From: Sulfurimonas crateris
GTDB lineage: Bacteria > Campylobacterota > Campylobacteria > Campylobacterales > Sulfurimonadaceae
Assembly: GCA_945883795.1 (NCBI GenBank)
Contig: CAMCYC010000017.1
Coordinates: 1 to 41,090, forward strand
DNA length: 41,090 bases
Direction: 5' to 3'
The notes under the pieces are model-generated. The model had not been told where the DNA came from and did no database searches. It worked only from the letters and a program-made list of their open reading frames with translations. Position numbers and translations under genes: made by a program. This document shows, piece by piece, positions 21,863 through 39,617 of the stretch (the first letter of the stretch is position 1; every line of letters starts with the position of its first letter).

Positions 21863-21988
21863 TCGTCCACACATTAAAATTCAAAAATAATAATATTTTT
21901 ACTTATAGTTATTAATTTCCTCTCATCAATAGTAATATTAAAATTAAATGATTTAAAAGATGCTAGTCGTTTAGTGAGTCACTTATGT

Positions 21989-21994
21989 TACAAT
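21989..21994 (+). promoter_or_regulatory. Possible -10 element for the sensory gene block
   Basis: TACAAT about 85 bases upstream of the ATG at 22079. It is the best box seen between the terminator hairpin and the first gene of the block. Confidence 0.35.
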
Positions 21995-22078
21995 GACATA
22001 GAAATTTTTTTACTTTTTTAACTGCTAAAGTTGGTTAAAAAATTATAAAACTACCTTAAATAAGGAGTAGCGAGAAAG

Positions 22079-22311: not shown

Positions 22312-23541
22312 ATGTTTGATATAAATAAGTATGAATTCGACCAAAAACATAATTGCCTTGAAATAGGTGGTGAAGCAATGGTATTTCATTGCCATCATTA
22401 CATGATGAATCTACAAAGAACTATTTTAGATGCAGATTATATAGAGAGCAAACTTTTTTTAATTGGGAGTGCTGCCGATTCTATTTATTATCAACTTACT
22501 AATCTTTGTCAAGGTCTAAGTATTGATGAATCTAAAGAGATAGCGCAAGATATTTATAAAACATTTGGATACGGACTTATAGACATTAGCAGTATGGATG
22601 AAAATGGAATAGAGTTACAAACCACAAAATCATTTTTTTCAAAAACTTGGTCTCTTAAATATGGTAACAGTAAAAAACCTGTTGACTATTATACAACAGG
22701 ATTTTTAGCAGCAGCGTATGCAGTTATCTACAATAAAAACTTAAAAAATATCTTTGCCCAACAAAACGCATGTATGGCATGTGGAGATGAAAAAAATACT
22801 TTTCTGATACGAGAGGGAGAATGTAATTTTGCAACATATCCTAAAAAACATGCAACTGTTTTTAAAGAAGTTCCAAAAGTTTCACTTAATTGGGAATATG
22901 AAGAGGTTATAACCAATGCATTTTTTGGTGCACATGCTACTATGGTTGGAGATAAGGATGGCTTGATTCCTGCTTTTCGTGTTTATCTTGTACGAACGCA
23001 GAGCGATTATGTAAATCGTTTACAGTTTGAATTTGCTAAAGCCATGATGGAAGTGGCTGGTGAATACGGTGAAACGCTTGCGGGTGAGCTTTTAATGGAA
23101 GCAGGGCATGCATGTGGATTTTTTACTTATGGTGGCATCATGAATTCACCTGAATGGGAAGGTGCTGTAAAACCATACTTAAAGAACAAAGAAGATTGGA
23201 TTAGAGGGCTTGCTGCAGTTGTAAATACTATGGGATGGGGATACCACACAGCAATTGAATTAAGTGAATCAAGAGCTGTATTTAGAAATTATAACGATTT
23301 TGAAGATTTGAGTTATATGAGAATGTACGGTACAAATACTCGTCCTATCCACTGGGCTAACAGTGGTGGATTTAAAGGGCTTATGCAGTTAGTATATAAT
23401 ACAGATATCGTTAATGGTGAAAACATTGAGACGGAAGAGGGTTTTAGAGCGATGCGAAGATCTAAAATTGGATATAAAACAAAAATGACAAAAGGTATCT
23501 CTTGTGGAGATGATTATTTGGAAGTAGAAATTTATTTATAA
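22312..23541 (+). CDS. Double V4R-like (4-vinyl-reductase fold) protein
   Basis: 409 residues, soluble. The N-terminal half begins with VFHCHHYMMNLQ (His26, Cys27, His28, His29) and ends with NACMACGDEKNTF (about 153-164), the cysteine pattern seen at the end of V4R domains. The second half repeats the plan with EYGETLAGELLMEAGHACGF and ends GISCGDDYLEVEIYL. V4R domains occur in BchJ-type proteins and in sensors that bind small ligands, possibly tetrapyrroles. The HCHH cluster could bind metal or haem. It is immediately followed by a histidine kinase and a bacteriophytochrome. Ligand and role are unknown; an intracellular sensor is my best guess. Confidence 0.6.
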   Translation: MFDINKYEFDQKHNCLEIGGEAMVFHCHHYMMNLQRTILDADYIESKLFLIGSAADSIYYQLTNLCQGLSIDESKEIAQDIYKTFGYGLIDISSMDENGIELQTTKSFFSKTWSLKYGNSKKPVDYYTTGFLAAAYAVIYNKNLKNIFAQQNACMACGDEKNTFLIREGECNFATYPKKHATVFKEVPKVSLNWEYEEVITNAFFGAHATMVGDKDGLIPAFRVYLVRTQSDYVNRLQFEFAKAMMEVAGEYGETLAGELLMEAGHACGFFTYGGIMNSPEWEGAVKPYLKNKEDWIRGLAAVVNTMGWGYHTAIELSESRAVFRNYNDFEDLSYMRMYGTNTRPIHWANSGGFKGLMQLVYNTDIVNGENIETEEGFRAMRRSKIGYKTKMTKGISCGDDYLEVEIYL

Positions 23542-23553
23542 TCGGAATGTGAA

Positions 23554-25320
23554 ATGAATAGAGAAGAATCACTAGCATCGGAAGTAGAAGTTCTACGACT
23601 TCAATCATTAAAACAAACAAAAATATACAAACGATTATATGAAATTGGAAAAAGCTTAAATGAAACGATGCAGATTCCTGAGATTTATAATTTGACAGTA
23701 GAATTTGCAACCAGTGAATTAAACTTTGAAAAATGTATCATTTTTGAACATGATGATTCAAACGGTTGGTTCAAAGTGGTTCAATCTGCAGGCTATCATA
23801 AACCTTATGAACAGCAAATATTACGAATTATCAATCTCCTCCTCTCTGGTGAGATTATCGAATATTTACGGGTTAATGGGGAACCTCTTATATATACACA
23901 AGAAAATCCAAAAGAGCAAGTAGCAAAATTAGTCAAATCACTCTTTTTAAATGAAGCCTATTTTGAGCTTTTTGGAGGCGATGTAGAGATACCTCATGGC
24001 GTTATTGTAGTAGGCAATGGAGTTGATAGTACAAACTCTTTTTCTAAAATTGGAATAGATGAGATGGTTATGCTCGCTTTGGGCAATTTTACAACAAGAC
24101 TCTCAAGTGCAGTCAGCAATATCCTTTTTTATCAAGCATGGAATAAAGAGCGAAAAAATTTACAACAATCCGTCTATGACCAAACGCTACTTAATATAAG
24201 ACTTGCTAAAGAGCAAAAATTTATTTCCACTATTTTAAATAATACAAGTGCAATCATTGCCATTATAGATTCTAAAGGGGTCATGACACGGATTAACTCT
24301 TATGGTGAAAAATTTACAGGATACACTCAAAAAGAGATTTCATCTGAACCTTATTTTTGGGGAAAATTTGTTCCAAAAGAGATTCAAGATAAAGTTTTTA
24401 GTATTGTTGAAAATGCAAAGCTAGGAAATATCGTCTCAAGGAATCAGAATTTCTGGATATCCAAAGAGGGTGAAGCTAGAATTTTTGATTGGGCAAATGT
24501 TTTGATTAAAAATGAAAATGATGAAATGGAGTATATTGTAACGGTTGGAATGGATGTAACGAACACTATAGAACAACAAAAAAAATTAGAAAATGCATTA
24601 GCAATAGCAGAAAATGCAGCAAGAGTTAAAGGTGAATTTTTGGCAAATATGAGTCATGAAATCCGAACTCCCATGAATGGAATACTTGGTTTTATTCAGC
24701 TTTTTGAACGCACTACTTTAGATGCAAAACAAAAAAAGTTCGTTGATATAATGCATACAAGTGCAAAAACTCTTATGGGGATTATTAACGATATTTTAGA
24801 TGTTTCAAAATTTGAGAGTGGAAACTTTGAATTAGATATTACAGAAGTAAATCCATTTATTGAATTCAAAAAAGTAGTTATGATTTTTATGACAAAAATC
24901 AAAGACAAAGAGATTTTATTTGATGTTGAGATAGATGAAAACATCTCTCCATGTGTTAAATTTGACTTATTACGAATGCAACAAATTATCTCTAATCTTC
25001 TTAGTAATGCCATTAAATTTACAGCTGAACATGGAAAAATTGTATTTTCAATAAAGATGCTTGATAAAAAAGAAGATTCGATACACTTAAAAATTAGTAT
25101 AAAAGATAGTGGAATAGGGATTCCCAAAGAGAAACAACAACATATTTTTGAAGCTTTTACCCAAGCAGCAGTTTCTACCACACGAATGTACGGAGGGACT
25201 GGTCTTGGCTTAACTATAAGTTCTCGCTTAGTATCTTTAATGGGTGGTCAATTACAAGTCGAGAGTGAAGAAAATGTTGGTAGTGATTTCTTTTTTGATA
25301 TTGTTGTCCAGACATGTTGA
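23554..25320 (+). CDS. Soluble GAF-PAS sensor histidine kinase
   Basis: 588 residues without membrane helices. Order: short coiled coil, GAF domain (about 30-195), PAS domain (about 222-345), HisKA with phospho-acceptor His368 in MSHEIRTPMNGI, and a HATPase with the N box (QQIISNLLSNAIKFT), the G1 box (KDSGIGIPKEKQQHIFEAF) and the GTGLGLTIS box. It ends there, with no receiver domain. The partner response regulator is not in the window. It lies 12 bases after the V4R gene and upstream of the phytochrome, so it may relay the signal of one of these neighbours. The GAF lacks phytochrome residues. Confidence 0.9.
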   Translation: MNREESLASEVEVLRLQSLKQTKIYKRLYEIGKSLNETMQIPEIYNLTVEFATSELNFEKCIIFEHDDSNGWFKVVQSAGYHKPYEQQILRIINLLLSGEIIEYLRVNGEPLIYTQENPKEQVAKLVKSLFLNEAYFELFGGDVEIPHGVIVVGNGVDSTNSFSKIGIDEMVMLALGNFTTRLSSAVSNILFYQAWNKERKNLQQSVYDQTLLNIRLAKEQKFISTILNNTSAIIAIIDSKGVMTRINSYGEKFTGYTQKEISSEPYFWGKFVPKEIQDKVFSIVENAKLGNIVSRNQNFWISKEGEARIFDWANVLIKNENDEMEYIVTVGMDVTNTIEQQKKLENALAIAENAARVKGEFLANMSHEIRTPMNGILGFIQLFERTTLDAKQKKFVDIMHTSAKTLMGIINDILDVSKFESGNFELDITEVNPFIEFKKVVMIFMTKIKDKEILFDVEIDENISPCVKFDLLRMQQIISNLLSNAIKFTAEHGKIVFSIKMLDKKEDSIHLKISIKDSGIGIPKEKQQHIFEAFTQAAVSTTRMYGGTGLGLTISSRLVSLMGGQLQVESEENVGSDFFFDIVVQTC

Positions 25321-25383
25321 GATAACATTGATAATTTTAATTACAAAATGCGTATCTACTCTTTTCACAAAGAAGAGAATCTT

Positions 25384-27873
25384 ATGGTCGTAAATATACA
25401 AGACACAAGCTTTTGTGATGCCGAGTCAATTCATAATTTATCACGCATTCAACGGAGTGGTTATCTACTTATTCTAAGCTATGAAAATTTAGAAATTTTA
25501 CAAGTCAGCGATAATATATCTAGCTTAACAAATATCCATTATCAAGAGGCATTAAATCAAACATTAGACTATCTCTTTGATAAAGATTTTTATACAAAGA
25601 TTTACAATGCAATATCAATTTTGAATAAAAATTCAAAAAAAGAAAAAACTTTTGTCGAAACTTATAAAAAAAGTAGATTTTTTTGTGCTATACATCTCAG
25701 CGAAAAATATGTAATTTTAGAGATAAGTGATATTACAGACCAAAATACAACTGAAGATTTTAGTGTTGAAGAAAATCTAGATAAGATAATACTAAGATGC
25801 CAAAAGACAGAGACATTTGATTCATTATGCAATGAAATTATTTCCTCTATTCAAAAGCTAAGTGGTTATGACCGTGTTTTGATGTATAAATTTGATGAAG
25901 ATGGGAGCGGAACTGTCTTAGCTGGACAAAGCACTATTTTAAAAGAAAATTTTCTAAATCATCGTTTTCCAGCTTCTGATATTCCCGCACAAGCTAGAGC
26001 TTTATATATTAAAAATAAATTTAGAATTATAGAAGATGTGAATGAAATAGATGCCTGTATTATCCCTGAGATAAATAGCATAACTCAAAGTGCTATAGAT
26101 ATGAGCTTTTGTCATTTTCGAGCTGTTTCACCAATACATATTAAATATTTAAAAAATATGGGCGTAGAATCATCTATGTCAATATCAATAGTGATTGATT
26201 CAAAGTTGTGGGGAATGATAGCCTGTCATAACTATGAGCCAATAAAAATACCACATACATTACATGCTATATATTATTTATTAAGTAGTATATTTGCTTC
26301 ATTTATAGAACAAAAAGAACTTATCAATAATTATCACATCTCTTTTAAACTCAAGTTGGAGCGGGAGTTGTTTATAAATACTTTAGCTCAAAAAAGTGAA
26401 ACTCATTTTATAAATGCTATTTTTGAGGATGCAACAAAACTTTTAGATATGTTCTCTTGCGAGATTGTTGCGTTAAAACATGGGAATGATTATAAATCCA
26501 CTGATAATAATATTGGTATGAATGAGATAGAAGAACTTTTAAAAATAGCTATACCTGAGATGAAAGATAATCTTTTTAATCGCTCTAACTTTGGTGTTTT
26601 GTATGGAAAAATAAACTCAAAAATTGGTGGTTTACTTGTTATTAAGCTTTCAAATATCAAAGATACTTATCTATTTTTTATAAGGGTTGAGCAAATATAT
26701 ACAGTTCAATGGGCAGGTGAGCCAAATAAAAGTGTGCGTTATGAAGATGGAAAAACAGTGGTTAGTCCAAGAGCTTCATTTGAAAGTTGGAAAGAGACCG
26801 TAATCGGAACTTCATCCCCTTTCATAAAACAAGAGATTGAATGTGCAGAAACATTGGCACAAAATCTTTCTCAACTCTATCTCTATTTTGAAATCTCGAA
26901 TAACTCACAAGAGCTCAAAGCAAAACAAATTATTCAAGAAAATATCATTCTTCAAAATGCTATCGAGAAAGAGATTTTATCGCAAAGAGATAGATTACTC
27001 AATAGCGTTGGGGAAGGGGTCTATGGAATAGATTTAAATATGAACTGTTTTTTTATCAATCCTGCTGCACTTTTAATGCTGGGATTAGAGGAAAAAGATG
27101 TTTTAGGAAAAGTTATACATCATATCATTCATCATCATAAAGATTATGGACATGAGTATTCGCCAAGTGAATACATAATACATACTATTATAAAAACTCA
27201 AAATAAACATGAGCAACATGATTGGCTTGTAAAATCTAACAGTGAAAAATTTCCAGTGAAAATGATTTTTACCCCCTTGTATGAGAACTCTCAAATTTCT
27301 GGCGTTGTTGTTGCTTTTACAGACATGTCTGCTGAGTATAACTCTAAGCAAGAGCTGCAAAAACTGAACAAAAAACTAGAACTCCTAGCAATGACAGACC
27401 CATTAACGCAAGTATATAATCAAAGATATTTCAAGAAATACGGAATGAAGCAATTTGATATTTCTAAAAAAGAGGAAAAGCCATGGAGTATCATTTTAAT
27501 AGAGATAGACAATTTTAAACTTATTAAAAAAACATATGGAAATGAAGTGAGCGATTTGGTTCTCATGATGGTGACAAAAGCACTCAAGTTAAACATCTCA
27601 GATGAAAATATTTTAGCTCGTATTGGCTGTGAAGAGTTTGCAATTATACTCCCGCAACTCAATATAAAACAGAGTGTTTCACTTGCTAGAGGTATAGTTG
27701 AAGAGATTCATAAAAATTCTGTGCCAGTTCATAACACAAAGCTATTTTGTACTGTTAGTATCAGCGTTGTTCAAAATGATACAATTTTTTCTAGATTTAT
27801 TGAAATGATGAAAACATTGGAGTTAAAGATGTTGTTTGCAAAAGAGTCTGGAGGAAACTGCATAAAAGCATAA
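25384..27873 (+). CDS. Bacteriophytochrome (PAS-GAF-PHY-PAS) with degenerate GGDEF domain
   Basis: About 829 residues. From the ATG at 25384 (AGAAGAGA upstream; another ATG at 25348 lacks a good site) the order is PAS with Cys11 in CDAESIHNLSRIQRSGYLL, aligning with the biliverdin-attaching Cys of BphPs; GAF with PASDIPAQARALY, AVSPIHIKYLKNMGVESSM and LWGMIACHN; PHY with the tongue motifs WAGEP and SPRASFESWKE; PAS (about 535-650); and a GGDEF fold. The residues matching Asp207, His260 and His290 of the Deinococcus protein are present. The GGDEF signature reads GCEEF and GNEVSD replaces the usual GHxxGD, so cyclase activity is doubtful. It would sense red/far-red light. No haem oxygenase gene is in the window. 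Confidence 0.9.
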   Translation: MVVNIQDTSFCDAESIHNLSRIQRSGYLLILSYENLEILQVSDNISSLTNIHYQEALNQTLDYLFDKDFYTKIYNAISILNKNSKKEKTFVETYKKSRFFCAIHLSEKYVILEISDITDQNTTEDFSVEENLDKIILRCQKTETFDSLCNEIISSIQKLSGYDRVLMYKFDEDGSGTVLAGQSTILKENFLNHRFPASDIPAQARALYIKNKFRIIEDVNEIDACIIPEINSITQSAIDMSFCHFRAVSPIHIKYLKNMGVESSMSISIVIDSKLWGMIACHNYEPIKIPHTLHAIYYLLSSIFASFIEQKELINNYHISFKLKLERELFINTLAQKSETHFINAIFEDATKLLDMFSCEIVALKHGNDYKSTDNNIGMNEIEELLKIAIPEMKDNLFNRSNFGVLYGKINSKIGGLLVIKLSNIKDTYLFFIRVEQIYTVQWAGEPNKSVRYEDGKTVVSPRASFESWKETVIGTSSPFIKQEIECAETLAQNLSQLYLYFEISNNSQELKAKQIIQENIILQNAIEKEILSQRDRLLNSVGEGVYGIDLNMNCFFINPAALLMLGLEEKDVLGKVIHHIIHHHKDYGHEYSPSEYIIHTIIKTQNKHEQHDWLVKSNSEKFPVKMIFTPLYENSQISGVVVAFTDMSAEYNSKQELQKLNKKLELLAMTDPLTQVYNQRYFKKYGMKQFDISKKEEKPWSIILIEIDNFKLIKKTYGNEVSDLVLMMVTKALKLNISDENILARIGCEEFAIILPQLNIKQSVSLARGIVEEIHKNSVPVHNTKLFCTVSISVVQNDTIFSRFIEMMKTLELKMLFAKESGGNCIKA

Positions 27874-27942
27874 TGACACTTCGTGGACACTTTTTCGATA
27901 CTATTCATAAAATTATAAAACTATCTAATAAAAAAAGAGTCT

Positions 27943-30900
27943 ATGATAAAAGCAAATATTGAAAAAAATAAAAGTAAAAATTTAGTGATTGTAGGACTTG
28001 GTGCAAGTGCTGGTGGGCTTGAAGCACTGAGACTTTTCCTTTCAAATCTTCCTCCTGAACATAACAATATTGCCTATGTAGTGGTGCAACATTTAAGTCC
28101 AACGCATAAAAGCATGATGCGAGAGTTGCTTGCAAGAGAGACAACTTTTGATGTTTTAGAGATACAAAGTGGATTGCTTCCAAAAGCCAATACTGTGTAT
28201 ATCACTCCTCCAGACCGTGATGTTGTCCTTAAAAATGGACTTCTCATGCTTGAACAGCCATTAGCAAGATGGATTGGACCAAAACCTTCTGTTGATAAAT
28301 TTTTTATTTCATTATCTAAAGAAAAACTTGAACTTGCCGTTGGTGTCATACTCTCAGGTACAGGCTCAGATGGTTCACAAGGTGTAAGAGCAATTCGTGC
28401 CGAAGGTGGAATAGCCATAGCTCAAAAACCTGAACAAGCCAAATATGATGGCATGCCAGCATCGGCTATACAAACAAAAAGCGTTGATTATATACTCCCC
28501 GCAGAAGATATAGCCAAAGAGATTATACATCTTTTACGCTATCCGAGTTCTCTAAGAGTCGAACAAGCAGAAGATGATGAATTCAATGTTATTTTTGAAA
28601 TAATTAGAAATAGATTTAATATAGATTTCAGTCAATACAAAAAAAGTACCATCACACGAAGAATTGAACGCCGCATGGCCGCTATAAAAGCTACAACCAT
28701 GACAAATTACATCACTTATCTTAAAGATAATATTGAAGAGGTGGAATATTTATATAAAGATATGCTCATAGGTGTTACCTCTTTTTTTAGAGATACAGAT
28801 GCTTTTGATGCGTTAAGAACACAGCTTGAATTCTATGTTAAAGAGCATAAAGAGGATGACCAATTTAGAGTTTGGGTATCCGCATGTTCTACTGGCGAAG
28901 AGGCTTATACTATCGCTATATTACTTGATGAAATTATGGGTTCTCACACTAGCAGACATGTGAAAATATTTGCAACCGACATTGATGAAGAAGCTATACA
29001 AAAAGCAAGAGCTGGAGTATTTCCAGAGCTTACGGTTTCAGAAGTCTCGCCTGAGCGATTACAAAGATATTTCATACAAAAAGGAAATGAGTTTGTAGTC
29101 AAGCCACAACTTAAAGAAAGGGTTATTTTCTCAAGACACGACATAACAATTGACCCTCCTTTTGTAAAAATTGATTTGGTTACATGTAGAAATATGCTAA
29201 TTTACTTTGAAACAGCCTTGCAAAAAAAGATTTTTACCACTTTTGCTTACTCTTTAAAACAGCATGGTATTTTATTTTTAGGAAAATCGGAATCAGTTGG
29301 TATGAATACTGATTTATACTCAACACTCGATGCAAAAGCAAAACTATTTCAAGCAAGAACAACCGTAGAATCAAGAAAGCTTTTGTATCCGCAGATGTTA
29401 AATGCAGGAAAATATATAAAACCTTCCATTGCAGTCAAACAAAAAAGAAAGACTAGCACCCTCGAAGATGCTATAAAAAACACCCTATTTGAATATTATG
29501 AAGCAAAATGCGTAGTTATAGACAATGATTTCAATATACACTACATCAAAGGAAATATGAATGATATGCTTAAATTTCCAAGTGGAGAAGTGCATAACAA
29601 TATTTTAAAAATGCTGCCTGAAAAAGTATCGCTAGAAGTACGCTCACTCGTATATAAAGCAAATAAAAATGAAGCACTCATAACTTTTCCAGCAGTTGCG
29701 CAATGTGCCCTTGAAATAGAAACAATTTCTGTAAAATTAAGTCCACTAGAGGGTAAATCAGGACATTATCTATACTTTTTAATCTGTTTTGATACTACGC
29801 AAAATACAGTTGAGAAACTACCGATTAAGATAGTTGAAAACGAAAATTCATACATTAGACAATTAGAACAAGAGCTACTTTCTACAAGGGAACATTTACA
29901 AACGGTTGTTGAAGAGTTGGAAACTTCTAACGAAGAGTTGCAATCCTCAAACGAAGAACTTCAAGCTTCAAACGAAGAACTTCAAGCGTCAAATGAGGAA
30001 CTCGAAACAACCAATGAAGAGCTACAATCTACAAACGAAGAGTTGCAAACAGCCTATTCTGAGATAAGAGCATTGTATGAAAAACAAAATTTACAGAAGA
30101 ATTATCTTGAAGGAAAGTCCAATGAACTCGGTGTTTTAAAAGAGGAACTCGATTTACAGTACGCCTATATCAAAGAAGTTTTGGACACTGAAAAAAATAT
30201 AGTAGTTGTAACAAATGGTAAAGAGATAATCTCGGTTAATGATGCGTTTTTCAAACTCTTTTCGCAATATTCCTCACTAGAAGAATTTAAAGTTGAACAT
30301 CAATGCGTTTGTGATTTCTTTGAAAAAAACAATGATGATGGGTATATTTATGAGAAAAAGAACGGCTTGAATTGGCTGAAGTTAATCATAAATAGTAATA
30401 GAAATGATTTAAAAGTAGATATAAAAAAAGATGAAGTTACATACACTTATCATATAATGGCAAGCATGTTAAAAGGCGGAGAACAGAGTTTTGTCGTCAC
30501 TTTAACGGACATCTCCCAAATTATAGCCTCTACGCTTAAATTGCAAACGGCTCTCTCTGATGAAATTCAAAGTAAAGTTAGCAGTTCGAATATCATTCAC
30601 CAATTCAATCATATTTTTGGTCAAGATTTATTCACTCTTCATATGACTGACGAGATACGAAAACCACTCAACAAAATATATCAAAACTATAAATCTATAA
30701 TAGAAATATCGAAGTTCAGTGATGCCGATACGATAAAATATATGGGAGAGTTTTCAATAGAGAAAAATGAAATTTTAAGTGCTATCACCTCTTTAAAACA
30801 TTTTTCTGGAGTCTTCAAAGACAGCACAGTTAATCTTTACGAATCATTTGAGCGAGTCGCTTTGTTAATAACCAACTCTAGGGCGAATGAACTTAATGTA

Positions 30901-31263
30901 GAATTATTAGGAATACAAACTCTTGAAATAGTTGATAAAAATGGACAAATATATCAACTTATCATGTTGTTAATGATGATATATGTACGAACAGTTACCA
31001 TGTTAAGCCTAAAGAATGTCACTTTAAAAATCGAGTTTACAAGTAAACCAGGGATGATTCTTATTAAAATTAATAATGTAGGTGATGAATCACTGTGTAA
31101 GCAATTATTAAAATTAGAAGCATCAAAAGAGATACTAGGCAAAGAATCTCAAAAAATCAGTGATACATTCACTATCTTTAGTTCAATGTTGCAAGTGGCT
31201 TATAACGCCAAATTTATTTTGGGAGCTGATTGTTGTGAGATTAACTTGCCAACAAATGTTTAA
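27943..31263 (+). CDS. CheB-CheR-coiled coil-PAS fusion ending in a pseudo-histidine-kinase
   Basis: 1106 residues. A CheB methylesterase domain (Ser22 in GASAGG, His50 in VVQHLSPTH, Asp143 in SGTGSDG) is followed by CheR (STITRRIERRM, the SAM site ACSTGEEAYT, DPPFVKIDLVTCRNMLIYF). Then come a heptad coiled coil (about 640-725), a PAS domain (about 740-865) and a C-terminal region. There, MTDEIRKPLNKI matches the H-box MSHEIRTPLNxI, but the phospho-acceptor His is Asp903. The N box is altered (IYQLIMLLMMIYVRTV) and no DxGxG follows. The CheB and CheR residues look intact. No receiver or chemoreceptor is linked. Likely a cytoplasmic adaptation or signalling hub. Confidence 0.9.
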   Translation: MIKANIEKNKSKNLVIVGLGASAGGLEALRLFLSNLPPEHNNIAYVVVQHLSPTHKSMMRELLARETTFDVLEIQSGLLPKANTVYITPPDRDVVLKNGLLMLEQPLARWIGPKPSVDKFFISLSKEKLELAVGVILSGTGSDGSQGVRAIRAEGGIAIAQKPEQAKYDGMPASAIQTKSVDYILPAEDIAKEIIHLLRYPSSLRVEQAEDDEFNVIFEIIRNRFNIDFSQYKKSTITRRIERRMAAIKATTMTNYITYLKDNIEEVEYLYKDMLIGVTSFFRDTDAFDALRTQLEFYVKEHKEDDQFRVWVSACSTGEEAYTIAILLDEIMGSHTSRHVKIFATDIDEEAIQKARAGVFPELTVSEVSPERLQRYFIQKGNEFVVKPQLKERVIFSRHDITIDPPFVKIDLVTCRNMLIYFETALQKKIFTTFAYSLKQHGILFLGKSESVGMNTDLYSTLDAKAKLFQARTTVESRKLLYPQMLNAGKYIKPSIAVKQKRKTSTLEDAIKNTLFEYYEAKCVVIDNDFNIHYIKGNMNDMLKFPSGEVHNNILKMLPEKVSLEVRSLVYKANKNEALITFPAVAQCALEIETISVKLSPLEGKSGHYLYFLICFDTTQNTVEKLPIKIVENENSYIRQLEQELLSTREHLQTVVEELETSNEELQSSNEELQASNEELQASNEELETTNEELQSTNEELQTAYSEIRALYEKQNLQKNYLEGKSNELGVLKEELDLQYAYIKEVLDTEKNIVVVTNGKEIISVNDAFFKLFSQYSSLEEFKVEHQCVCDFFEKNNDDGYIYEKKNGLNWLKLIINSNRNDLKVDIKKDEVTYTYHIMASMLKGGEQSFVVTLTDISQIIASTLKLQTALSDEIQSKVSSSNIIHQFNHIFGQDLFTLHMTDEIRKPLNKIYQNYKSIIEISKFSDADTIKYMGEFSIEKNEILSAITSLKHFSGVFKDSTVNLYESFERVALLITNSRANELNVELLGIQTLEIVDKNGQIYQLIMLLMMIYVRTVTMLSLKNVTLKIEFTSKPGMILIKINNVGDESLCKQLLKLEASKEILGKESQKISDTFTIFSSMLQVAYNAKFILGADCCEINLPTNV
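29911..30057 (+). repeat. Seven in-frame 21-bp repeats coding EEL(Q/E)xxN heptads
   Basis: Seven consecutive 21-base units encode EELETSN, EELQSSN, EELQASN, EELQASN, EELETTN, EELQSTN and EELQTAY. The third and fourth differ by only a few bases. They form the coiled-coil linker after CheR. Such repeats can gain or lose units, which would change the linker by two helical turns at a time. Confidence 0.9.
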
Positions 31264-31266
31264 CAC

Positions 31267-33270
31267 ATGAAGAAGGAAATAAAAGATTTTTTTAACTCTT
31301 GGATGCTTTCGCTTCCTTTGCCTGTCATAATCGTAGATTATGACTTTAGGATTTTGCTCTCCAACGACAAAGCAACTATGCTATTAGATTTTAATTTCAA
31401 AAAACCACAATATTTGGAAAACTATTTTCATAGGTCATTGATAACACATTTTTTAGAATTCAAAAATGCACTCAAATCTGTCGAATATGGCGAGATAGAT
31501 ATAAAGCTCGATCATCTTGGACATACAAAAATGATTGGTCGCTATTTTGATGACGACTTGGGTTATTATATTATTTTCATGATACCTCTCGTGTATAAAG
31601 ATAATTATTTAAAATTAGAAGAAAGATTCTCCACAATAATGCACCACATGAATGATTCTGTTTTAATTACCGACAAACAGCAAAGGATAATTGAAGCAAA
31701 TCCAGCATTTACTAAAATAACGGGGTATGAATTTTTAGAAGTTCGAGGTAGATTTCCAACGATTTTAAGTAGTGGCAAACAAAATGAAGACTATTATAAA
31801 AAAATGTATGAGGAAATGAGTATAAAAGGGTTTTATAATGGCGAATTGATGGACCGTAAAAAAAATGGTGAATCTTTTTATGCGAGTGCCAGCATCATTC
31901 CACTTCTTGATGAAGGTAGTGAAATATATGAATATATAGGGATTTTAAAAGATATCACTGAGCTTAAATCACTAAGAAAGAAAGTTGATAGTGATAAACA
32001 TAAAGACCCTCTCACAGGCGTACTAAGCAGAGAATCGTTTTTAAATGTGCTTAGTATAAAGTGTGAAATGGCAAACGAAAATAACACTTTGGCTATTTTA
32101 TTTATAGATTTAAATAAATTTAAGCAGGTTAACGATACTTTTGGGCATCAATATGGAGATTTCGTCCTCTCAACAGCGGCTTCAAGGATGAAAAAAGTTT
32201 TGCGTAATAATGATTTGATTGGCAGGTATGGCGGAGATGAATTTCTCATTTTATTAGAAAGAGTCAATGAAGAAAGTGCTCATAAAATTGCAGTCAATAT
32301 TAATGAGGTATTGTCACACCCTTATGTTGTAGATGAGCAAGTTATAGATTTTGTCTCAGGAAGTATAGGGATAGCATTCGCTCCTACAGATAGTCGAAAT
32401 GTAACGCAGTTAATCGAAAAAGCTGATGCGGCAATGTATTTTGCAAAAAAAGGCTTAAAAAAAAGCTATATATTGATGGCGAATGCTCTCAATAATGAAC
32501 CAAAAAATAATAAAAGTATAAAAACAGAGTTAATGCATGCAATTGAAAATGATGAGTTTTATATAAGAATTCAACCTATCGTTAAAATTTCAGATGCCTC
32601 TATTGTTGGAGGAGAAGTTCTTGCAAGATGGTTGAATTTATATTTTGACGAAGTCATGCCAAGCACTTTTATTCCATTAATAGAAAAATTGGATATTTCA
32701 AAAAAGTTTGATAGAAAAATTTTATCAAAAACAATCGAAGTCTTAAAAACCCAAAAGCTTCCAGAAGATTTTTTTATCAATGTAAACTTTTCTGCCGAAC
32801 AATTTGGAGATAGTAATTTTGTAACAATATTAGAAAATCTAGCTACAGAGGATTCTTGGCTATTAAAACATTTGGTGATTGAAATTACTGAAAGTACTAT
32901 GATGGCAGATATTGAGCAAACATCTCAATATCTGCATGAAATTAAGAAAATTGGATTCAAATTGGCTATTGATGATTTTGGAACAGGTTTCTCATCACTA
33001 TCTTACCTCAAACATTTTTCAATTGATTATCTGAAAATTGATATTAGTTTTATAGAGTATATTGAAGAAAATCAAAAAGATAGAGATATAGTTCAAGCAA
33101 TAACCATGCTAGCAAAAGGGATAGGTGCAAAAACAATTATTGAAGGTGTAGAGAGAGAAAGCCAATACGAAATACTCAAAGATATAGGCATTGACTACGC
33201 ACAAGGCTTTTTATTTTATAGACCAATGTTGAGTCAATCCTTTTTTACTACCGTCTGGTCTATAAATTGA
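31267..33270 (+). CDS. PAS-PAS-GGDEF-EAL dual-domain c-di-GMP protein
   Basis: 667 residues, soluble. An N-terminal PAS-like segment (about 10-105) and a clear PAS with PAC (about 118-238, ITGYEFLEVRG, GILKDITELK) are followed by GGDEF with intact RYGGDEF (322-326) and INDTFGHQYGD-type residues (here VNDTFGHQYGD). The EAL domain has E450-V-L in GGEVLARW, IEITESTMM, DDFGTGFSSLSYLK, LKIDISF and EGVE, so both diguanylate cyclase and phosphodiesterase sites look usable. It starts three bases after the CheB-CheR stop, so it is in the same operon. It is the one protein here with full c-di-GMP chemistry. Confidence 0.93.
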   Translation: MKKEIKDFFNSWMLSLPLPVIIVDYDFRILLSNDKATMLLDFNFKKPQYLENYFHRSLITHFLEFKNALKSVEYGEIDIKLDHLGHTKMIGRYFDDDLGYYIIFMIPLVYKDNYLKLEERFSTIMHHMNDSVLITDKQQRIIEANPAFTKITGYEFLEVRGRFPTILSSGKQNEDYYKKMYEEMSIKGFYNGELMDRKKNGESFYASASIIPLLDEGSEIYEYIGILKDITELKSLRKKVDSDKHKDPLTGVLSRESFLNVLSIKCEMANENNTLAILFIDLNKFKQVNDTFGHQYGDFVLSTAASRMKKVLRNNDLIGRYGGDEFLILLERVNEESAHKIAVNINEVLSHPYVVDEQVIDFVSGSIGIAFAPTDSRNVTQLIEKADAAMYFAKKGLKKSYILMANALNNEPKNNKSIKTELMHAIENDEFYIRIQPIVKISDASIVGGEVLARWLNLYFDEVMPSTFIPLIEKLDISKKFDRKILSKTIEVLKTQKLPEDFFINVNFSAEQFGDSNFVTILENLATEDSWLLKHLVIEITESTMMADIEQTSQYLHEIKKIGFKLAIDDFGTGFSSLSYLKHFSIDYLKIDISFIEYIEENQKDRDIVQAITMLAKGIGAKTIIEGVERESQYEILKDIGIDYAQGFLFYRPMLSQSFFTTVWSIN

Positions 33271-33293: not shown

Positions 33294-34016
33294 ATGATAC
33301 ATAATAAATTAATTCAGCTAGCTCGTTATAGTTATTGGGACAAAGAAATTGGTGCTTTAATAGTGGATGCGAAACATCTAAAATTAACTGTATCTCAAAG
33401 AAAACTCCTTGGATTGTTGGTAGAAAACTTAAATCGTCCTGTTCATGGCACTCTAATATTTGATGAAGTAAATCATTCGCTAGATAAAGAATTTAATGAA
33501 AAAAGTGTTCGTAATCTCATAAGTAGTTTGAGAAAGTTTGCACCAATGATTAAGATTGTCAATATTTATGGTGGGTATTATATGCTTAGAAAAGATAGCA
33601 TGTATCCTGATTTAGAATTTAAAGATTATTTATATGAAGTTTTGGACCAATCGAAAAATGCCATAGTGATAACAAACCCAAACGAATATGACAATCCTAT
33701 TATTTATGTCAACAGTGCTTTTAGCGAATTATTTGAATACACATTTGAAGATGTGATGGGTAAAAATTGCCGTTTTTTACATGATGATGATATTGAGCAA
33801 TTAGCTATTGATGAAATAAGAAAAGCAATTCAAGAACGAGAATCTATAACAGTAAACCTTCGTAATTATACACAAAGCGGTAAGATACTTTATAACGAGG
33901 TAACCATAAGCCCCATATTTGACAAAAAAAATGGTAAATTAAAATACTTCTTAGGTGTTCATAAAGATGTTACATTTATCAAAACCTTAATGAGACAGTT
34001 AAGCTCTTTACATTAA
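33294..34016 (+). CDS. Winged-helix DNA-binding protein fused to a LOV blue-light domain
   Basis: 240 residues. Residues about 28-98 form an OmpR-type winged helix (LTVSQRKLLGLLVENLNRPV, EKSVRNLISSLRKF, IYGGYYML). Residues about 115-228 are a LOV domain: NPIIYVNSAF, then GKNCRFLHDD with Cys159 at the flavin-adduct position, LRNY (Asn191), YNEVTISP (Asn201) and YFLGVHKDVT. The two glutamines usual in LOV (NCRFLQ and GVQ.DVT) are His163 and His223 here. It most likely binds FMN and controls transcription in response to blue light or redox state. It follows the GGDEF-EAL gene by 23 bases. The ribosome site is weak. Confidence 0.88.
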   Translation: MIHNKLIQLARYSYWDKEIGALIVDAKHLKLTVSQRKLLGLLVENLNRPVHGTLIFDEVNHSLDKEFNEKSVRNLISSLRKFAPMIKIVNIYGGYYMLRKDSMYPDLEFKDYLYEVLDQSKNAIVITNPNEYDNPIIYVNSAFSELFEYTFEDVMGKNCRFLHDDDIEQLAIDEIRKAIQERESITVNLRNYTQSGKILYNEVTISPIFDKKNGKLKYFLGVHKDVTFIKTLMRQLSSLH

Positions 34017-34116
34017 AGTAAAATATCTAAGCATCAAGTGATAATTTGGATTTGAACAATTTAATAGTTATTTTATGATTGAATATAAAAAAGCAATTTT
34101 TACGACACTTTATCGT

Positions 34117-34122
34117 TATAAT
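34117..34122 (+). promoter_or_regulatory. Likely -10 element for the tandem-PAS gene
   Basis: TATAAT in the 141-base gap before the gene, about 36 bases from the chosen start. The gap suggests a transcript separate from the block upstream, possibly a target of the winged-helix LOV regulator next to it. Confidence 0.5.
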
Positions 34123-34157
34123 TTTATAAACTTAATTAGAAAAGGATGAAATATATT

Positions 34158-34952
34158 ATGAATACTTTTAGTATTAACCATATCTCTTCAAAATCAATTC
34201 TCAGTGCGTTTGATTTTGCACTTAATCCTATTGCTATCACAGATTCGGATTTGAAAAGAGGTGTGAAGATTTTGTATGTAAATCCCGCTTTTTTAAAGCA
34301 GACAGGCTACAGCAAAGAAGAGCTTTTGGGTGAAAGTCCTAAGATACTTCAAGGTCCTAAAAGTAATCAAGAGATGCTTTTAAAACTTAAAGAAACTCTC
34401 TTGCGTGATGAAGATTTTCACGGACAAACAACAAATTATAAAAAAGATAAAACTCCTTATATTGTTCAGTGGAGCATCTCCCCTTTAAAAAATGTATACA
34501 ATAAGACTGTCGCATTTATCTCCATTCAAAAAATCTTAACTAAAGAAATAGACGCTATTAACAACAACATACTTTTTGAAAGTATCATTCAGCAGTCGCC
34601 ACAAGCAATACTTGTTTCTGACCTTGAAGGAAAGATTATTTATACAAACGAAGCTTTTGTTAACAGTACGGGCTATTCGATAAATGAACTTGTTGGACAA
34701 CATACAAGAATGCTTAAATCAGGAAAACAGAATCAAGAGTTTTATGAAAAGATGTGGTTTGAACTTGTACATCATGAAAGTTTTGAAGGAATCTTTATTA
34801 GTAAAAAGAAAAATGGTTCTCTTTTTTATAATAAACAAAGTATTCGATTAGTAAAAGATATAGATGGCATGCCAAAATATTATATGTCAATTTCTCATGA
34901 TATTACAAATCTTAAAAATGCTTTAGCAACGAAAAAAAAGCAATCAAGTTGA
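34158..34952 (+). CDS. Tandem PAS protein, first domain LOV-like without the cysteine
   Basis: 264 residues made only of two PAS/PAC units (about 15-125 and 133-255). The first reads GESPKILQGPKSNQEML, which follows the LOV pattern G-x-NCRFLQGPxT but has Pro at the cysteine position. The second reads GQHTRMLKSGKQNQEFY and ISHDITNLK. There is no output domain, so it should act through partners. ATG 34158 is preferred over ATG 34146 because AAAGGA (34141-34146) runs into the earlier start and suits the later one. It is the last gene of the sensory block and ends before a strong hairpin. Confidence 0.8.
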   Translation: MNTFSINHISSKSILSAFDFALNPIAITDSDLKRGVKILYVNPAFLKQTGYSKEELLGESPKILQGPKSNQEMLLKLKETLLRDEDFHGQTTNYKKDKTPYIVQWSISPLKNVYNKTVAFISIQKILTKEIDAINNNILFESIIQQSPQAILVSDLEGKIIYTNEAFVNSTGYSINELVGQHTRMLKSGKQNQEFYEKMWFELVHHESFEGIFISKKKNGSLFYNKQSIRLVKDIDGMPKYYMSISHDITNLKNALATKKKQSS

Positions 34953-34985: not shown

Positions 34986-35030
34986 TTAGGAATTAAAAGA
35001 TAATTTTAATTCCTAAAAGTTTTTTATTTT
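34986..35030. terminator. Bidirectional terminator between sensory block and ED operon
   Basis: TTAGGAATTAAAA (34986-34998) and TTTTAATTCCTAA (35004-35016) form a perfect 13-bp stem with loop GATAA, followed by AAGTTTTTTATTTTT on the plus strand. The convergent eda gene ends at 35024, just beyond it, so one hairpin probably serves both sides. Confidence 0.85.
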
Positions 35031-35656
35031 TGATTTAATAATTCTACTGCTTCTCGTGTGAGTTGTGTTATCTCATCAAATTTTTTTGCTTCGATAAGCT
35101 CTTGTGGAACTATCCAGCTTCCACCGATACATGCCACATTTGGGAGTTCCAAAAAGCTCCTTGCATTCTCTTTATTAATCCCACCAGTTGGGCAAAAAAT
35201 CACATCTTTAAAAGGTCCGCCAAACGCTTTGAGTGCGCCAACTCCTCCTACAACTGTTGCAGGAAAAAGCTTAAACGCATCAAAACCATATTCAAGTCCA
35301 CTCATAATTTCACTTGCAGTTGCAACTCCTGGCAAAAGAGGCATAAAAGAATTTTTTGAAAATTCAGCCAAACTTTTTGTAAGTCCTGGAGAGATTGCAA
35401 ATTTTGCACCAGCATTTTCTACAGCTTTAAAAGTCTCAATATTTATAACAGTTCCCGCACCAGTGAGTGCATGAGGAAACTCTTTTGCCACAGCTTCAAT
35501 CGCTTCAATCGCAGCAGGTGTTCGTAAAGTTATTTCAAAAATATTAACACCACCTCGCAGAAGTGCTTCAGCCAAATGGAGCATTTCATTTGCACTTTTT
35601 ACACTAATGACAGGGATAATTTTGGACACTAACATCACTTCTCTAGCAGTTAACAT
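35024..35656 (-). CDS. eda: 2-keto-3-deoxy-6-phosphogluconate aldolase
   Basis: 210 residues, last gene of the operon. Splits KDPG into pyruvate and glyceraldehyde-3-phosphate, the final step of the Entner-Doudoroff route. Typical sites are IIPVISV, the Glu in FEITLRTPAAIEAI, GAGTVIN, the Schiff-base lysine in FKLFPA and CPTGGI. The start overlaps the edd end by seven bases, so translation is coupled. Confidence 0.95.
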   Translation of the reverse strand: MLTAREVMLVSKIIPVISVKSANEMLHLAEALLRGGVNIFEITLRTPAAIEAIEAVAKEFPHALTGAGTVINIETFKAVENAGAKFAISPGLTKSLAEFSKNSFMPLLPGVATASEIMSGLEYGFDAFKLFPATVVGGVGALKAFGGPFKDVIFCPTGGINKENARSFLELPNVACIGGSWIVPQELIEAKKFDEITQLTREAVELLNQK

Positions 35657-37479
35657 GATTCCTCTCCTACAGCTTCAAATATTGTTGCACCCTCTTCGGC
35701 AGTGTTTACAACTTTACGCATCATACCAAAAAGCTCTCTTCCCACACCATACATATTTTCGCTCAAATTAGGCGTGTTTATCTCCCGTTTTAGAAGTTCA
35801 TCTTCGCTTACATGTAAAATCAAACTTTCAGCATCACAATCAAGTTCTATCATGTCACCATCAATAATTTTGCCTATCACACCACCATCTTTTGCTTCTG
35901 GGCAAAGATGAATTGCAGAGGCAACTTTTCCTGATGCACCTGACATTCTTCCATCTGTAATAATTGCTACTTTATAGCCATTGTCTTGTAATGCTCCCAT
36001 GGACGGCATCAAACCATGCAACTCAGGCATACCGTTTGATTTTGGACCTTGATATGGTAAAACTGCTATAAAGTCAGAATTTAATTCACCTTTACTAAAA
36101 GCCTCTTTGAGTGCTTCTTGGGAATAAAATACTTTTGCAGGAGCTTTTATAATTCTATTGCTCTCTTTGAGTGCAGAAGTTTTGATGATTGAGCGACCAA
36201 TATTTCCATCTAAAACTTTGAGTCCACCTTGTATGTCAAACGGTTTTTTGACACTGCTAATAACTGAAGTATCAGCAGAATTCTCAATTGCTTTTTTATA
36301 TATAAGTTTGCCATTTTCTAAAAATGGTTCTTTGAGATAATTGCTCAAACCAAATCCCATAATAGTATTGACATCTTCATGTAAAAGTCCACTATCCAAA
36401 AGCTCTTTTATCACAACCGCCATCCCACCAGCACTATGAAAATGATTGACATCTGCACTTCCATTTGGATACATGCGACACAGTAATGGTACAACGCTTG
36501 AGAGTGTATTAAAATCATTCCATGTAAGAGTGATTCCACAAGCACGAGCCATAGCGATGAGGTGGATTGTGTGGTTTGTAGAACCTCCTGTTGCCAAAAG
36601 TCCCACGATTGCATTGACAAAACTTTTTTCATCTATCATTTTACCAATTGGCATGTAATTTTCACCCAAAGGGGAAAGCTCTAAAAGTTTAAGCGAAATT
36701 GCCTCTGTGAGGGCATCACGAAGTGGGGTGTTTGCATTTACAAACGAGCCACCTGCCATGTGAAGTCCCATAATTTCCATAAGCATCTGATTGGAATTTG
36801 CTGTGCCATAAAAGGTGCAAGTTCCAGAAGAGTGATAAGATGCACTCTCCGCTTCTAAAAGATTTTCACGAGTTGCTTTACCTTGAGCATATTCTTGACG
36901 AATTTTTGCTTTTTGGCTGTTACTAATTCCTGATTCCATAGGACCAGCAGGTGCAAAAACAATAGGCAAATGTCCAAATTTCATAGCACCTATAAACATA
37001 CCAGGGACAATTTTATCACATACACCAAGCATAATTGCACCGTCAAACATATTATGAGAAAGTGCAATAGCGGTACTTTGAGCAATGTTATCTCGACTAA
37101 AAAGACTCATCTCCATCCCTTTTTGGGATTGTGTTACTCCATCACACATAGCAGCTACACCACCAGCGACTTGTGCATCTGCACCTGCTAAATTTAAAGC
37201 TCTTTTAATAAGTGGTGGAAAATTTACAAAAGGTTGGTGTGCTGAGAGCATGTCGTTATAAGCTGAAACTATAGCAATATTTTCACTTTGCATTTTTATA
37301 AGATGTGCTTTTTCATGGGCTGAACAAGGTGCTATTGCATGGGCGAGATTGCTACAGCTAAGTGAGCCTCTTTGGGGTTTGTTTTTGTGTGCTTCTTCTA
37401 TGCGATTGAGATAGATTGCTCTTGTTTTTTGAGAACGCTCAATAATGTTGTGTGTCACTTCTGTGAGTTTGTTATGCAT
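35650..37479 (-). CDS. edd: 6-phosphogluconate dehydratase
   Basis: 609 residues, normal for Edd. Converts 6-phosphogluconate to KDPG with a [4Fe-4S] cluster. The cluster cysteines are in AAMCDGVTQSQKGMEMS, GVCDKIVPGM and GTCTFYGTANSN; DGRMSGASGKVASAIH is the conserved C-terminal segment. Distinguished from dihydroxy-acid dehydratase by the N-terminal HNKLTEVT.NIIERS pattern and by lying between pgl and eda. The iron-sulfur centre makes it oxygen-sensitive. It overlaps both neighbours by seven to eight bases. Confidence 0.96.
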   Translation of the reverse strand: MHNKLTEVTHNIIERSQKTRAIYLNRIEEAHKNKPQRGSLSCSNLAHAIAPCSAHEKAHLIKMQSENIAIVSAYNDMLSAHQPFVNFPPLIKRALNLAGADAQVAGGVAAMCDGVTQSQKGMEMSLFSRDNIAQSTAIALSHNMFDGAIMLGVCDKIVPGMFIGAMKFGHLPIVFAPAGPMESGISNSQKAKIRQEYAQGKATRENLLEAESASYHSSGTCTFYGTANSNQMLMEIMGLHMAGGSFVNANTPLRDALTEAISLKLLELSPLGENYMPIGKMIDEKSFVNAIVGLLATGGSTNHTIHLIAMARACGITLTWNDFNTLSSVVPLLCRMYPNGSADVNHFHSAGGMAVVIKELLDSGLLHEDVNTIMGFGLSNYLKEPFLENGKLIYKKAIENSADTSVISSVKKPFDIQGGLKVLDGNIGRSIIKTSALKESNRIIKAPAKVFYSQEALKEAFSKGELNSDFIAVLPYQGPKSNGMPELHGLMPSMGALQDNGYKVAIITDGRMSGASGKVASAIHLCPEAKDGGVIGKIIDGDMIELDCDAESLILHVSEDELLKREINTPNLSENMYGVGRELFGMMRKVVNTAEEGATIFEAVGEESC

Positions 37480-38164
37480 AATATACCTCTAATATTGGCT
37501 TTTCTTGTTGCATCATCGAGATGATTGGCATTGAAAACATATCATGATTTTGACACGCTTTGTCAAAAACTTCTTTTTTATTTTTTCCCTCTATGTGCAA
37601 AATAAGTGTTTTTGTTGTGAGTAAAAACTTTCGAGAGAGTGTCATGCGTTCATACGGTTCAACCGTTGCGGTACTAGCACAGCATCGTTCTGTTGTGTCA
37701 AATGCAGTTTTTAACTCTGTTGCATGTGGAAAAAAGGAGGCAGTGTGTGCATCATCTCCCATTCCAAGAATAACCACATCAAAAGTTTCAATAGCTTTAA
37801 GCCTATTTTGGGTGATTTTTACACCATCACTTGCTCTTATGGCAGCATTTTTAAGCGAGATAAATTGTGCCATTTTTGCATGGTTTTGCAATAAATATTG
37901 TGTCAGTAAGTTTTCATTACTTTTTATATCATAAGTTTCAACCCACCGTTCATCTACCAAAGTAATTATGACTTTGTTCCATGGAATGTCTACATTTGAG
38001 AGTTTTTCAAACATTTTTTTTGGGGTATTGCCACCTGAAAAAGCCAAATAAGCTTTCCCTTTTATATGGATGGCATTGAGAATTTCTGCAATAATTCTCT
38101 CACAAAGAGCTTCACTTAAAAGTTCATTATTTTCAAAACTGTTTATTTGATATTTATTTTTCAT
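37472..38164 (-). CDS. pgl: 6-phosphogluconolactonase
   Basis: About 230 residues of the DevB/SOL type, which hydrolyses 6-phosphogluconolactone. Seen: AFSGGNTPKKMFEKL, ITLVDERWV, ILGMGDDAHTASFFP (with the catalytic-region His) and RMTLSRKFLL. I chose the ATG at 38164; in-frame TTG 38188 and ATG 38179 lie inside the zwf end. It overlaps zwf by 11 bases and edd by 8. Confidence 0.93.
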   Translation of the reverse strand: MKNKYQINSFENNELLSEALCERIIAEILNAIHIKGKAYLAFSGGNTPKKMFEKLSNVDIPWNKVIITLVDERWVETYDIKSNENLLTQYLLQNHAKMAQFISLKNAAIRASDGVKITQNRLKAIETFDVVILGMGDDAHTASFFPHATELKTAFDTTERCCASTATVEPYERMTLSRKFLLTTKTLILHIEGKNKKEVFDKACQNHDMFSMPIISMMQQEKPILEVYYA

Positions 38165-39617
38165 ACCAGCTTCTACCATCTCTTTCAATTAAAGCGATGG
38201 AAGCCGAAGGTCCATCTGTACCTGATGTATAAGGTTTTGGTGTAATTCCATTATTTTTCCATCCATCCAAGATTTTATCTGCCCAAACCCATGCTGCTTC
38301 TACTTCATCACGACGCATAAAAAGTGTTGGATTATTTCTCACAACATCAAGTAATAAATGTTCATACGCATCTGGAGTTCTTACAGTTGAGGCTGCGACA
38401 TTGAGGTCAAGTTTTACTTTTTGAAGACGCATTCCTTCATTGAGTCCAGGAATTTTATTCATGATAAAAAGCGAAATACTCTCATCAGGTTGAAGGCGAA
38501 TAACAAGTTTATTGCTATCTATGCAGATGCCACCTTTTGGAAAAATTGAGTGCGGAACATCTTTGAAATCTATCACAATTTCACTATATTTTTCTCGCAT
38601 TCTTTTTCCAGTTCGCAGATAAATAGGCACACCATTCCATCTCCAGTTATCAATATCAGCACGCAAAGCGACAAATGTTTCTGTAAGACTATTCGCATTG
38701 CCACCATCCTCTTCTAAATAACCCACCACAGCTTTTTTATCACTCACACCCGAAGCATATTGCCCTCGAACCGTTTTAAGTCTTAAATTTTCCCCGTCAA
38801 TATATCGTAAAGAGCGGATAACTTTGAGTTTTTCGTCACGAACATTATCTCCATTAAGTGAAGATGGTGGTTCCATGGTGATAAGACACAGGAGTTGTAA
38901 AAGGTGGTTTTGCACCATGTCACGCATAGCTCCATAATTGTCATAATAGCTCCATCGCCCCTCAGCCCCTACAGTTTCAGCCACTGTAATTTGAATATGG
39001 TCAATATAAAGAGAGTTCCAAATTGGTGCAAAAAGCATATTTGAAAATCTTAAAGCCAAAATATTTTGAACAGTATCTTTTCCCAAATAGTGGTCAATTC
39101 TAAAAATTGTAGATTCGCTAAAATGTTTTGAAACTTCATCATTTATCACTTGAGATGATTTTAAATCATTCCCAATTGGCTTTTCCAAAACAACCCGTGA
39201 AGTAGGCAAAATTAAACCCGCATTATCCAAAAATCGGCAAATAGTTCCAAAAAGTGATGGCGCAGTAGAGAGGTAATTTATCCGCTCTTTTTCTTCATGC
39301 CCTTTGAGTAAATTTGCAAGAGATTGGTAAGATTCCTCTTGCATCAAATCTACCATGACATAATGAAGGCGTATTTTAAACACTTCAAACACTTGTTCAT
39401 CAAAAACTTTTTCTTTAAAAGAGGCTTTGAACTTTTGCTCTATAATATTGCAATACTCCTCTTGAGTCATATTATCACGAGAAACAGCAATAATTCTCGT
39501 TTCACTCCCAAGGTGATTCCCTTTGAGAAGATGATATAACGCTGGCATCAACTTACGAAGAGCTAAATCTCCACTTGCACCAAAAATAATAATATCAGAT
39601 TGAATCTCTTTTTTCAT
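38154..39617 (-). CDS. zwf: Glucose-6-phosphate 1-dehydrogenase
   Basis: 487 residues, first gene of the ED operon. Oxidises glucose-6-phosphate to the lactone with NAD(P)+. The Rossmann motif IIIFGASGDLALRKLMPALYH is at residues 9-29, the substrate site RIDHYLGKDTVQNIL follows, then YLRTGKRM. AAAGG lies upstream of the ATG. The promoter should be in 39618-39700 on the minus strand, but no box stood out. Confidence 0.97.
   Translation of the reverse strand: MKKEIQSDIIIFGASGDLALRKLMPALYHLLKGNHLGSETRIIAVSRDNMTQEEYCNIIEQKFKASFKEKVFDEQVFEVFKIRLHYVMVDLMQEESYQSLANLLKGHEEKERINYLSTAPSLFGTICRFLDNAGLILPTSRVVLEKPIGNDLKSSQVINDEVSKHFSESTIFRIDHYLGKDTVQNILALRFSNMLFAPIWNSLYIDHIQITVAETVGAEGRWSYYDNYGAMRDMVQNHLLQLLCLITMEPPSSLNGDNVRDEKLKVIRSLRYIDGENLRLKTVRGQYASGVSDKKAVVGYLEEDGGNANSLTETFVALRADIDNWRWNGVPIYLRTGKRMREKYSEIVIDFKDVPHSIFPKGGICIDSNKLVIRLQPDESISLFIMNKIPGLNEGMRLQKVKLDLNVAASTVRTPDAYEHLLLDVVRNNPTLFMRRDEVEAAWVWADKILDGWKNNGITPKPYTSGTDGPSASIALIERDGRSWYEK

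Follow-up and report, generated by a model that had tools for sequence, protein, structure and literature searches.

EL222 is a soluble one-component LOV transcription factor in which a LOV domain with the active-site Gln is followed by a LuxR-type helix-turn-helix. In NmPAL (PAS-ANTAR-LOV), the LOV domain takes an unusual C-terminal position, and NmPAL and YtvA have RNA-binding or STAS outputs and the canonical Gln. In YF1, this Gln was replaced by all 19 other residues and most variants still signalled, with only Pro, His, Trp, Tyr and Arg abolishing the light response (Dietler et al. 2022, PMC9098866). Gln-to-His variants of YF1 and AsLOV2 bound flavin and formed no adduct, and NmPAL Q347H lost its light response (PMC9098866). 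Approximately 350 natural Gln-less LOV receptors are known, mostly with Leu or Ile and a few with His, large aromatic residues being largely absent among the replacements, and a Met-containing receptor of this kind responds to light (PMC9098866). Natural LOV proteins lacking the adduct Cys respond to flavin reduction (PMC4682037).

Here, we describe wHTH-LOV, a predicted DNA-binding protein encoded in a 41,090-nucleotide stretch (the window) of Sulfurimonas crateris contig CAMCYC010000017.1 (GenBank assembly GCA_945883795.1; feature coordinates in Table 1). Its architecture, active-site residues, clade, operon and conserved predicted operator are established by sequence comparison. The protein resembles EL222 as a soluble one-component LOV regulator and, as an earlier interpretation of the DNA letters (the sequence-only reading) had noted, differs from it in build, with an OmpR/PhoB-type winged helix (wHTH) at the N-terminus, the LOV domain at the C-terminus, and His in place of Gln. 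It shares the wHTH fold with OmpR/PhoB response regulators (KdpE, YycF, PhoB, CssR), but has no receiver domain, carries the wHTH N-terminally and has a LOV domain as its sensor. The C-terminal LOV position is shared with NmPAL and the closest LOV family model is that of YtvA, although both of these differ in output and in having Gln rather than His.

Table 1. Features of the wHTH-LOV locus (window coordinates)
Feature	Position	Strand	Remarks
Bacteriophytochrome-PAS-GGDEF	25348..27873	+	directly upstream of predicted operator
Proposed operator, three tandem 11-bp repeats GACACTTCGTG-GACACTTTTTC-GATACTATT(CA)	27875..27904	+	predicted
CheB-CheR-PAS hybrid, operon gene 1	27943..31263	+	homologue near wHTH-LOV in eight other loci
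PAS-GGDEF-EAL c-di-GMP enzyme	31267..33270	+	3 bp after CheB-CheR, 23 bp before wHTH-LOV
wHTH-LOV gene, 240 aa	33294..34016	+	ATG start; subject of this report
OmpR/PhoB-type winged helix, aa 1-100	33294..33593	+	AlphaFold2 of domain alone and family sequence profile
LOV domain with flanking helices, aa 105-239	33606..34010	+	PDB, NCBIfam and fold matches
Adduct Cys159 codon, TGC	33768..33770	+	
His223 codon, CAT, replacing conserved LOV Gln	33960..33962	+	
Possible weak operator, GACACTTTATC GTTATAATTTT	34104..34125	+	one good half-site only; before PAS-PAS gene

Domain architecture and LOV active site

The AlphaFold2 model of the full-length protein (mean pLDDT 83.5, about 90 in the LOV core) shows an A'alpha helix at residues 105-119, a LOV core at 122-226 and a J-alpha helix at 227-239; because its pTM is only 0.52, the mutual orientation of wHTH and LOV is not confidently predicted. 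Modelled alone (pLDDT 88.8), the winged helix has the N-terminal four-stranded sheet, three helices and C-terminal hairpin wing of the OmpR/PhoB-type fold, and matches the effector domains of KdpE, YycF, PhoB and SaeR in fold comparison (Z about 14). Pfam Trans_reg_C scores 23.5 bits on the window protein alone, below the cut-off of 26.2 (E 5.8e-5), and is matched by 12 of 15 orthologues (E<=0.01; best 8e-8), while a family profile of the domain retrieves CssR, DrrD, ArlR and ToxR by sequence. Chance resemblance to the OmpR type is ruled out by this profile and the fold match.

For the LOV half, the top PDB match is phototropin-2 LOV2/miniSOG (E 1.7e-25), with YtvA at 8e-24, and LOV crystal structures match the predicted model over residues 106-240 with Z of 18-21. 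A LOV variant with Gln changed to His, CagFbFP Q148H, has been crystallised. Against NCBIfam, the YtvA blue-light photoreceptor family scores 134.5 bits, NifL 55.6 and the heme-PAS DosP 31.5. These scores and fold matches make the LOV assignment unambiguous and rule out a chance resemblance. A better match to non-flavin PAS domains, for which the sequence-only reading had advised checking, was not found in these comparisons, in which LOV models lead the NifL and DosP PAS models by approximately 80-100 bits. Profile, fold and domain order bear out the reading's proposal of a one-component protein with an OmpR-type winged helix fused N-terminally to LOV.

The active-site residues likewise stand as first read, in an ungapped alignment: GKNCRFLHDD (residues 156-165) matches the GxNCRFLx motif and carries the adduct Cys159, N191 and N201 occupy both flavin-contact Asn positions (strands G and H), and GVHKDVT (221-227) places His223 in the column of the active-site Gln of strand I. 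Arg160 is also kept, and FLQ reads FLH, as it does in Gln-type orthologues too. By the definition of LOV-deltaQ proteins in PMC9098866, the window protein is a natural Gln-less LOV, with the adduct Cys and other conserved LOV residues present and the Gln absent. It differs from the receptors described there, which mostly have Leu or Ile, in belonging to a clade with only His or Tyr, and from the one tested there, a diguanylate cyclase, in being predicted to bind DNA.

Orthologue family and His/Tyr clade

We found 23 distinct full-length orthologues, all from Campylobacterota and all with the same domain order and length. They occur in 19 of 135 genus genomes and, elsewhere in the phylum, in a small number of other genera and families; among plasmids, none was clearly seen outside Campylobacterota. 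A literature search found no paper with an OmpR-type wHTH-LOV, and an earlier mention of the architecture is possible.

Nine orthologues have Gln and Cys, two have Gln with Cys changed to Pro, two have His and Cys (the window protein and L010), nine have Tyr and Cys, and one (L045, 1501-2217) has His at the Gln site with Cys changed to Ile, Asn191 to Glu and Asn201 to Asp. Gln is thus kept in 11 orthologues and is His or Tyr in 12. In a tree computed with the active-site columns masked, these 12 proteins form one side of a branch with support of 100/99.9; the tree implies a single loss of Gln and requires a total of four changes at this position. By this tree, His223 is not peculiar to the window protein, which belongs to a clade of His- and Tyr-type orthologues. 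Once Gln was gone, the position holds only His or Tyr; Leu, Ile, Ser and Thr, which are typical of other natural Gln-less LOV domains, are never seen. Two-step paths of single changes from CAR (Gln) to TAY (Tyr) pass only through His or a stop, and His is therefore the expected intermediate. The phylum's other LOV domains with an intact NCRF/NCRY motif carry Gln at the same site.

Within the clade, the adduct Cys is retained in 11 of 12 members, with synonymous codon turnover, and Asn201 is changed to Glu, Asp or Thr in most. The loss of Gln was accompanied by changes at positions 123 and 188 and at several positions of the wHTH; position 123 we take to correspond to AsLOV2 Asn414 (ungapped numbering from the Cys, counted by hand). 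Close pairs in the clade have LOV dN of 0.04-0.06 and dS of 0.4-0.7, and by this measure the domain is still under purifying selection. The LOV/wHTH divergence ratio of 0.88, against 0.59 in the Gln clade, could mean that the sensor is partly relaxed. In a sister clade, L020 (1492-2196) and L044 (1465-2202) have canonical Gln and Asn residues and Pro for Cys (NPRYLQ), and represent natural Cys-less LOV domains attached to the same kind of DNA-binding domain.

Operon and predicted operator

wHTH-LOV is the third gene of a tight run, after the CheB-CheR-PAS and PAS-GGDEF-EAL genes. In most other loci, homologues of these partners lie next to wHTH-LOV in an order that varies, and PAS/REC-GGDEF(-EAL) genes adjoin it in most; in His/Tyr loci, wHTH-LOV is usually the last gene of the operon.

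Comparison of upstream DNA revealed a conserved block before the Gln-type genes, a tandem GACACTTTNAA-GAYACTTTT with an 11-bp period, directly followed by a -10-like element. A half-site model was built from six Gln-type promoters alone and then run on all loci. In 9 of 11 His/Tyr loci, the window included, the top match is the best site just upstream of the operon's first gene; this site ranks second in L061 and third in L057, where the top site lies 124 bp downstream of the gene. The L058 locus is truncated where its contig stops, and the model finds no good site in L066 (Gln+Pro type). In the window, the phytochrome and CheB-CheR genes are 69 bp apart, and the proposed operator lies in this gap. 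Pattern scans of the window's own genome (G000, 2.41 Mb) found exactly two zero-mismatch matches to GAYACTTNNNNGAYACTWT, both at 27875-27904. In genus-wide scans, an exact match is present in 9 of 19 genomes that have wHTH-LOV and in 16 of 116 that lack it (Fisher p 0.002). The genomes with wHTH-LOV contain 12 exact matches, 10 of which fall in its locus; matches in the genomes lacking it look like background, many being inside unrelated ORFs.

Tandem 11-bp direct repeats (GACACTTNNNN-GAYACTWT) at the wHTH-LOV operon promoter are thus a family-wide predicted operator, and one that is new here. OmpR/PhoB-type winged helices bind tandem direct repeats spaced by about one helical turn; in the pho box, such repeats have a period of 11 bp and overlap the -35 region. 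Of the DNA targets that had been proposed from the sequence alone, 34017-34157 contains a single good half-site (34104) and 21856-22078 has no operator-like site among the matches listed, and the strong predicted operator lies elsewhere, before the first gene of the operon. Loci of the Gln, His and Tyr types all conserve such sites, which suggests that DNA recognition was kept while sensor residues changed. L045, with its decayed flavin site (no Cys and neither Asn), keeps the operon and a strong predicted operator (L073 2287), so transcription-factor function would need no LOV photochemistry. Since the repeats overlap the expected -35 region, activation and repression are both possible. In L131, from a genome without wHTH-LOV, an exact GACACTT tandem repeat (approximately 1501) lies between an OmpR-type response regulator (REC-wHTH, with a similar wHTH) and its neighbour gene, which suggests that the half-site may be common to related OmpR-type regulators.

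Phytochromes near wHTH-LOV

In the window phytochrome, the motif FCDAESIH places a Cys where biliverdin is usually attached near the N-terminus. Phytochromes (PHY domains) are rare, being found in only 3 of 135 genus genomes, in four copies, two of them in the wHTH-LOV locus (the window and G182, where a heme-oxygenase-like gene lies beside the phytochrome). A second PHY of G000 is on contig C16 (20390-20887), approximately 1.4 kb from a heme-oxygenase-like gene (C16:22266), and in G130, from another family, a phytochrome directly adjoins wHTH-LOV. All three phytochrome-associated wHTH-LOVs are non-canonical (His, Gln+Pro and Tyr), and the phytochrome could therefore be a substitute light input; it is absent from most Tyr-type loci. 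Judged by gene content, the phytochrome neighbourhood ties the locus to light physiology, which does not imply light sensing by this LOV domain. The phytochrome beside the Tyr-type wHTH-LOV of L057 (2501-5032) seems to have no Cys for biliverdin binding near its N-terminus, where it reads LLYDVEPID.

Proposed mechanism and alternative explanations

The explanation that we moderately favour is that wHTH-LOV is an autoregulating one-component flavin sensor with a non-standard signal, controlling a chemosensory and c-di-GMP operon. What we infer is that the protein binds flavin, binds the repeats and autoregulates, together with the direction of this regulation and the kind of signal. The OmpR/PhoB-type winged helix, probably dimeric, would bind the tandem repeats and regulate its own operon (CheB-CheR-PAS hybrid, PAS-GGDEF-EAL and wHTH-LOV); that the protein is a transcription factor autoregulating through these repeats is very probable. 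The C-terminal LOV domain would bind a flavin nucleotide, which we hold with similarly high confidence for the window protein because YF1 and AsLOV2 retain flavin binding when their Gln is mutated to His. The DNA-binding domain would receive a change in flavin state (N5 protonation) through the A'alpha linker. With His at residue 223, and His or Tyr clade-wide, the standard thio-adduct and Gln flip are most likely not the signal. Instead, altered photochemistry or redox chemistry (weakened adduct formation, or reduction to the neutral semiquinone) would most probably generate it, and the aromatic, hydrogen-bonding residue at the Gln site would read out the flavin state.

The sequence-only reading expected that Gln to His should alter photochemistry or signalling, and the YF1, AsLOV2 and NmPAL data support this (PMC9098866). 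It also called the protein a blue-light transcription factor. The one-component architecture agrees with this name, but its blue-light part is less certain than stated, because Gln to His leaves YF1 and AsLOV2 without the adduct and makes YF1 and NmPAL unresponsive to light. Since His and Tyr cost YF1 its light response, the clade has fixed exactly signalling-abolishing residues while mostly keeping the Cys, and such swaps point to a different light chemistry or to another kind of flavin sensor. We consider the chances of any light response of the window protein to be about even, and a canonical adduct cycle to be improbable.

A canonical blue-light transcription factor, in which the Cys-flavin adduct forms, signalling is normal and the pocket accommodates His223, is accordingly an unlikely reading, since Gln to His stops the adduct in YF1 and AsLOV2 and both His and Tyr abolish YF1 signalling. 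It would be consistent with the retention of Cys159, Asn191, Asn201 and Arg160, with the Cys kept through synonymous codon turnover in nearly the whole clade, and with pocket and sheet positions that changed together with Gln, among which Gly to Ala or Pro at position 123 and the change to Asn at position 188 may compensate; natural Gln-less LOV receptors can be light-responsive, as shown for Met (PMC9098866), and the neighbouring phytochromes suggest a light-related locus. Loss of light sensing by the clade, leaving a light-blind flavin or redox sensor or a constitutively locked LOV, is possible, though not what we expect. In that case, the domain would report the redox state of the flavin or do no more than hold the dimer together, and any light input required would come from the phytochrome next door, which most Tyr-type loci do not have. 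In YF1, His and Tyr are loss-of-response substitutions; L045 lacks the Cys and both Asn, and L020 and L044 have Pro for Cys, yet the wHTH is retained; flavin reduction elicits a response in natural LOV proteins without the Cys (PMC4682037); and the LOV/wHTH rate ratio is raised. Against light-blindness, the Cys persists in all clade members except L045 and dN/dS in the LOV domain is low.

A LOV-like PAS domain that binds something other than flavin is highly improbable. The change of Asn201 in most clade members suggests that flavin ring contacts have drifted, but the window protein itself keeps both Asn residues, the Cys and the NCRF motif, its LOV matches far outscore NifL and DosP, the YF1 and AsLOV2 mutants with His bind flavin, and CagFbFP Q148H was crystallised. 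A further, more novel proposal, which we regard as rather doubtful, is that aromatic, proton-active His or Tyr took over the job of Gln and gave rise, in a LOV fold, to new flavin signalling chemistry controlling transcription. An example, to be taken just as tentatively, would be Tyr/His-assisted proton-coupled electron transfer with semiquinone signalling as in BLUF, beside the retained Cys.

LOV one-component regulators are already known as a kind, and the active-site series of this protein is unusual. Gln+Cys, Gln+Pro, His+Cys, Tyr+Cys and His+Ile versions occur within one family, with the same DNA-binding domain and the same predicted operator, and light responses, redox responses and DNA binding can thus be compared across natural variants of five active-site types. 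It is debated in LOV biology by what route the signal gets out of the flavin chromophore, and this family offers a natural test. The regulator, compact, OmpR-type and supplied with a predicted operator, could also be used as an optogenetic or redox-genetic part.

Other genes in the window

Downstream of wHTH-LOV, 34146-34952 encodes a PAS-PAS protein. Its first PAS is similar to LOV-like domains that have no Cys (ESPKILQGP ... ISIQK) and has the Gln; with Cys absent and Gln present, it is a mirror image of its wHTH-LOV neighbour. Co-directional with the phytochrome gene and tightly spaced before it, 22312-25320 encodes a PAS-histidine kinase with a sub-threshold V4R domain. On the minus strand, 35024-38188 contains genes read by eye as KDPG aldolase, 6-phosphogluconate dehydratase and 6-phosphogluconolactonase, which we take to be the Entner-Doudoroff set in a Sulfurimonas-like chemolithotroph.
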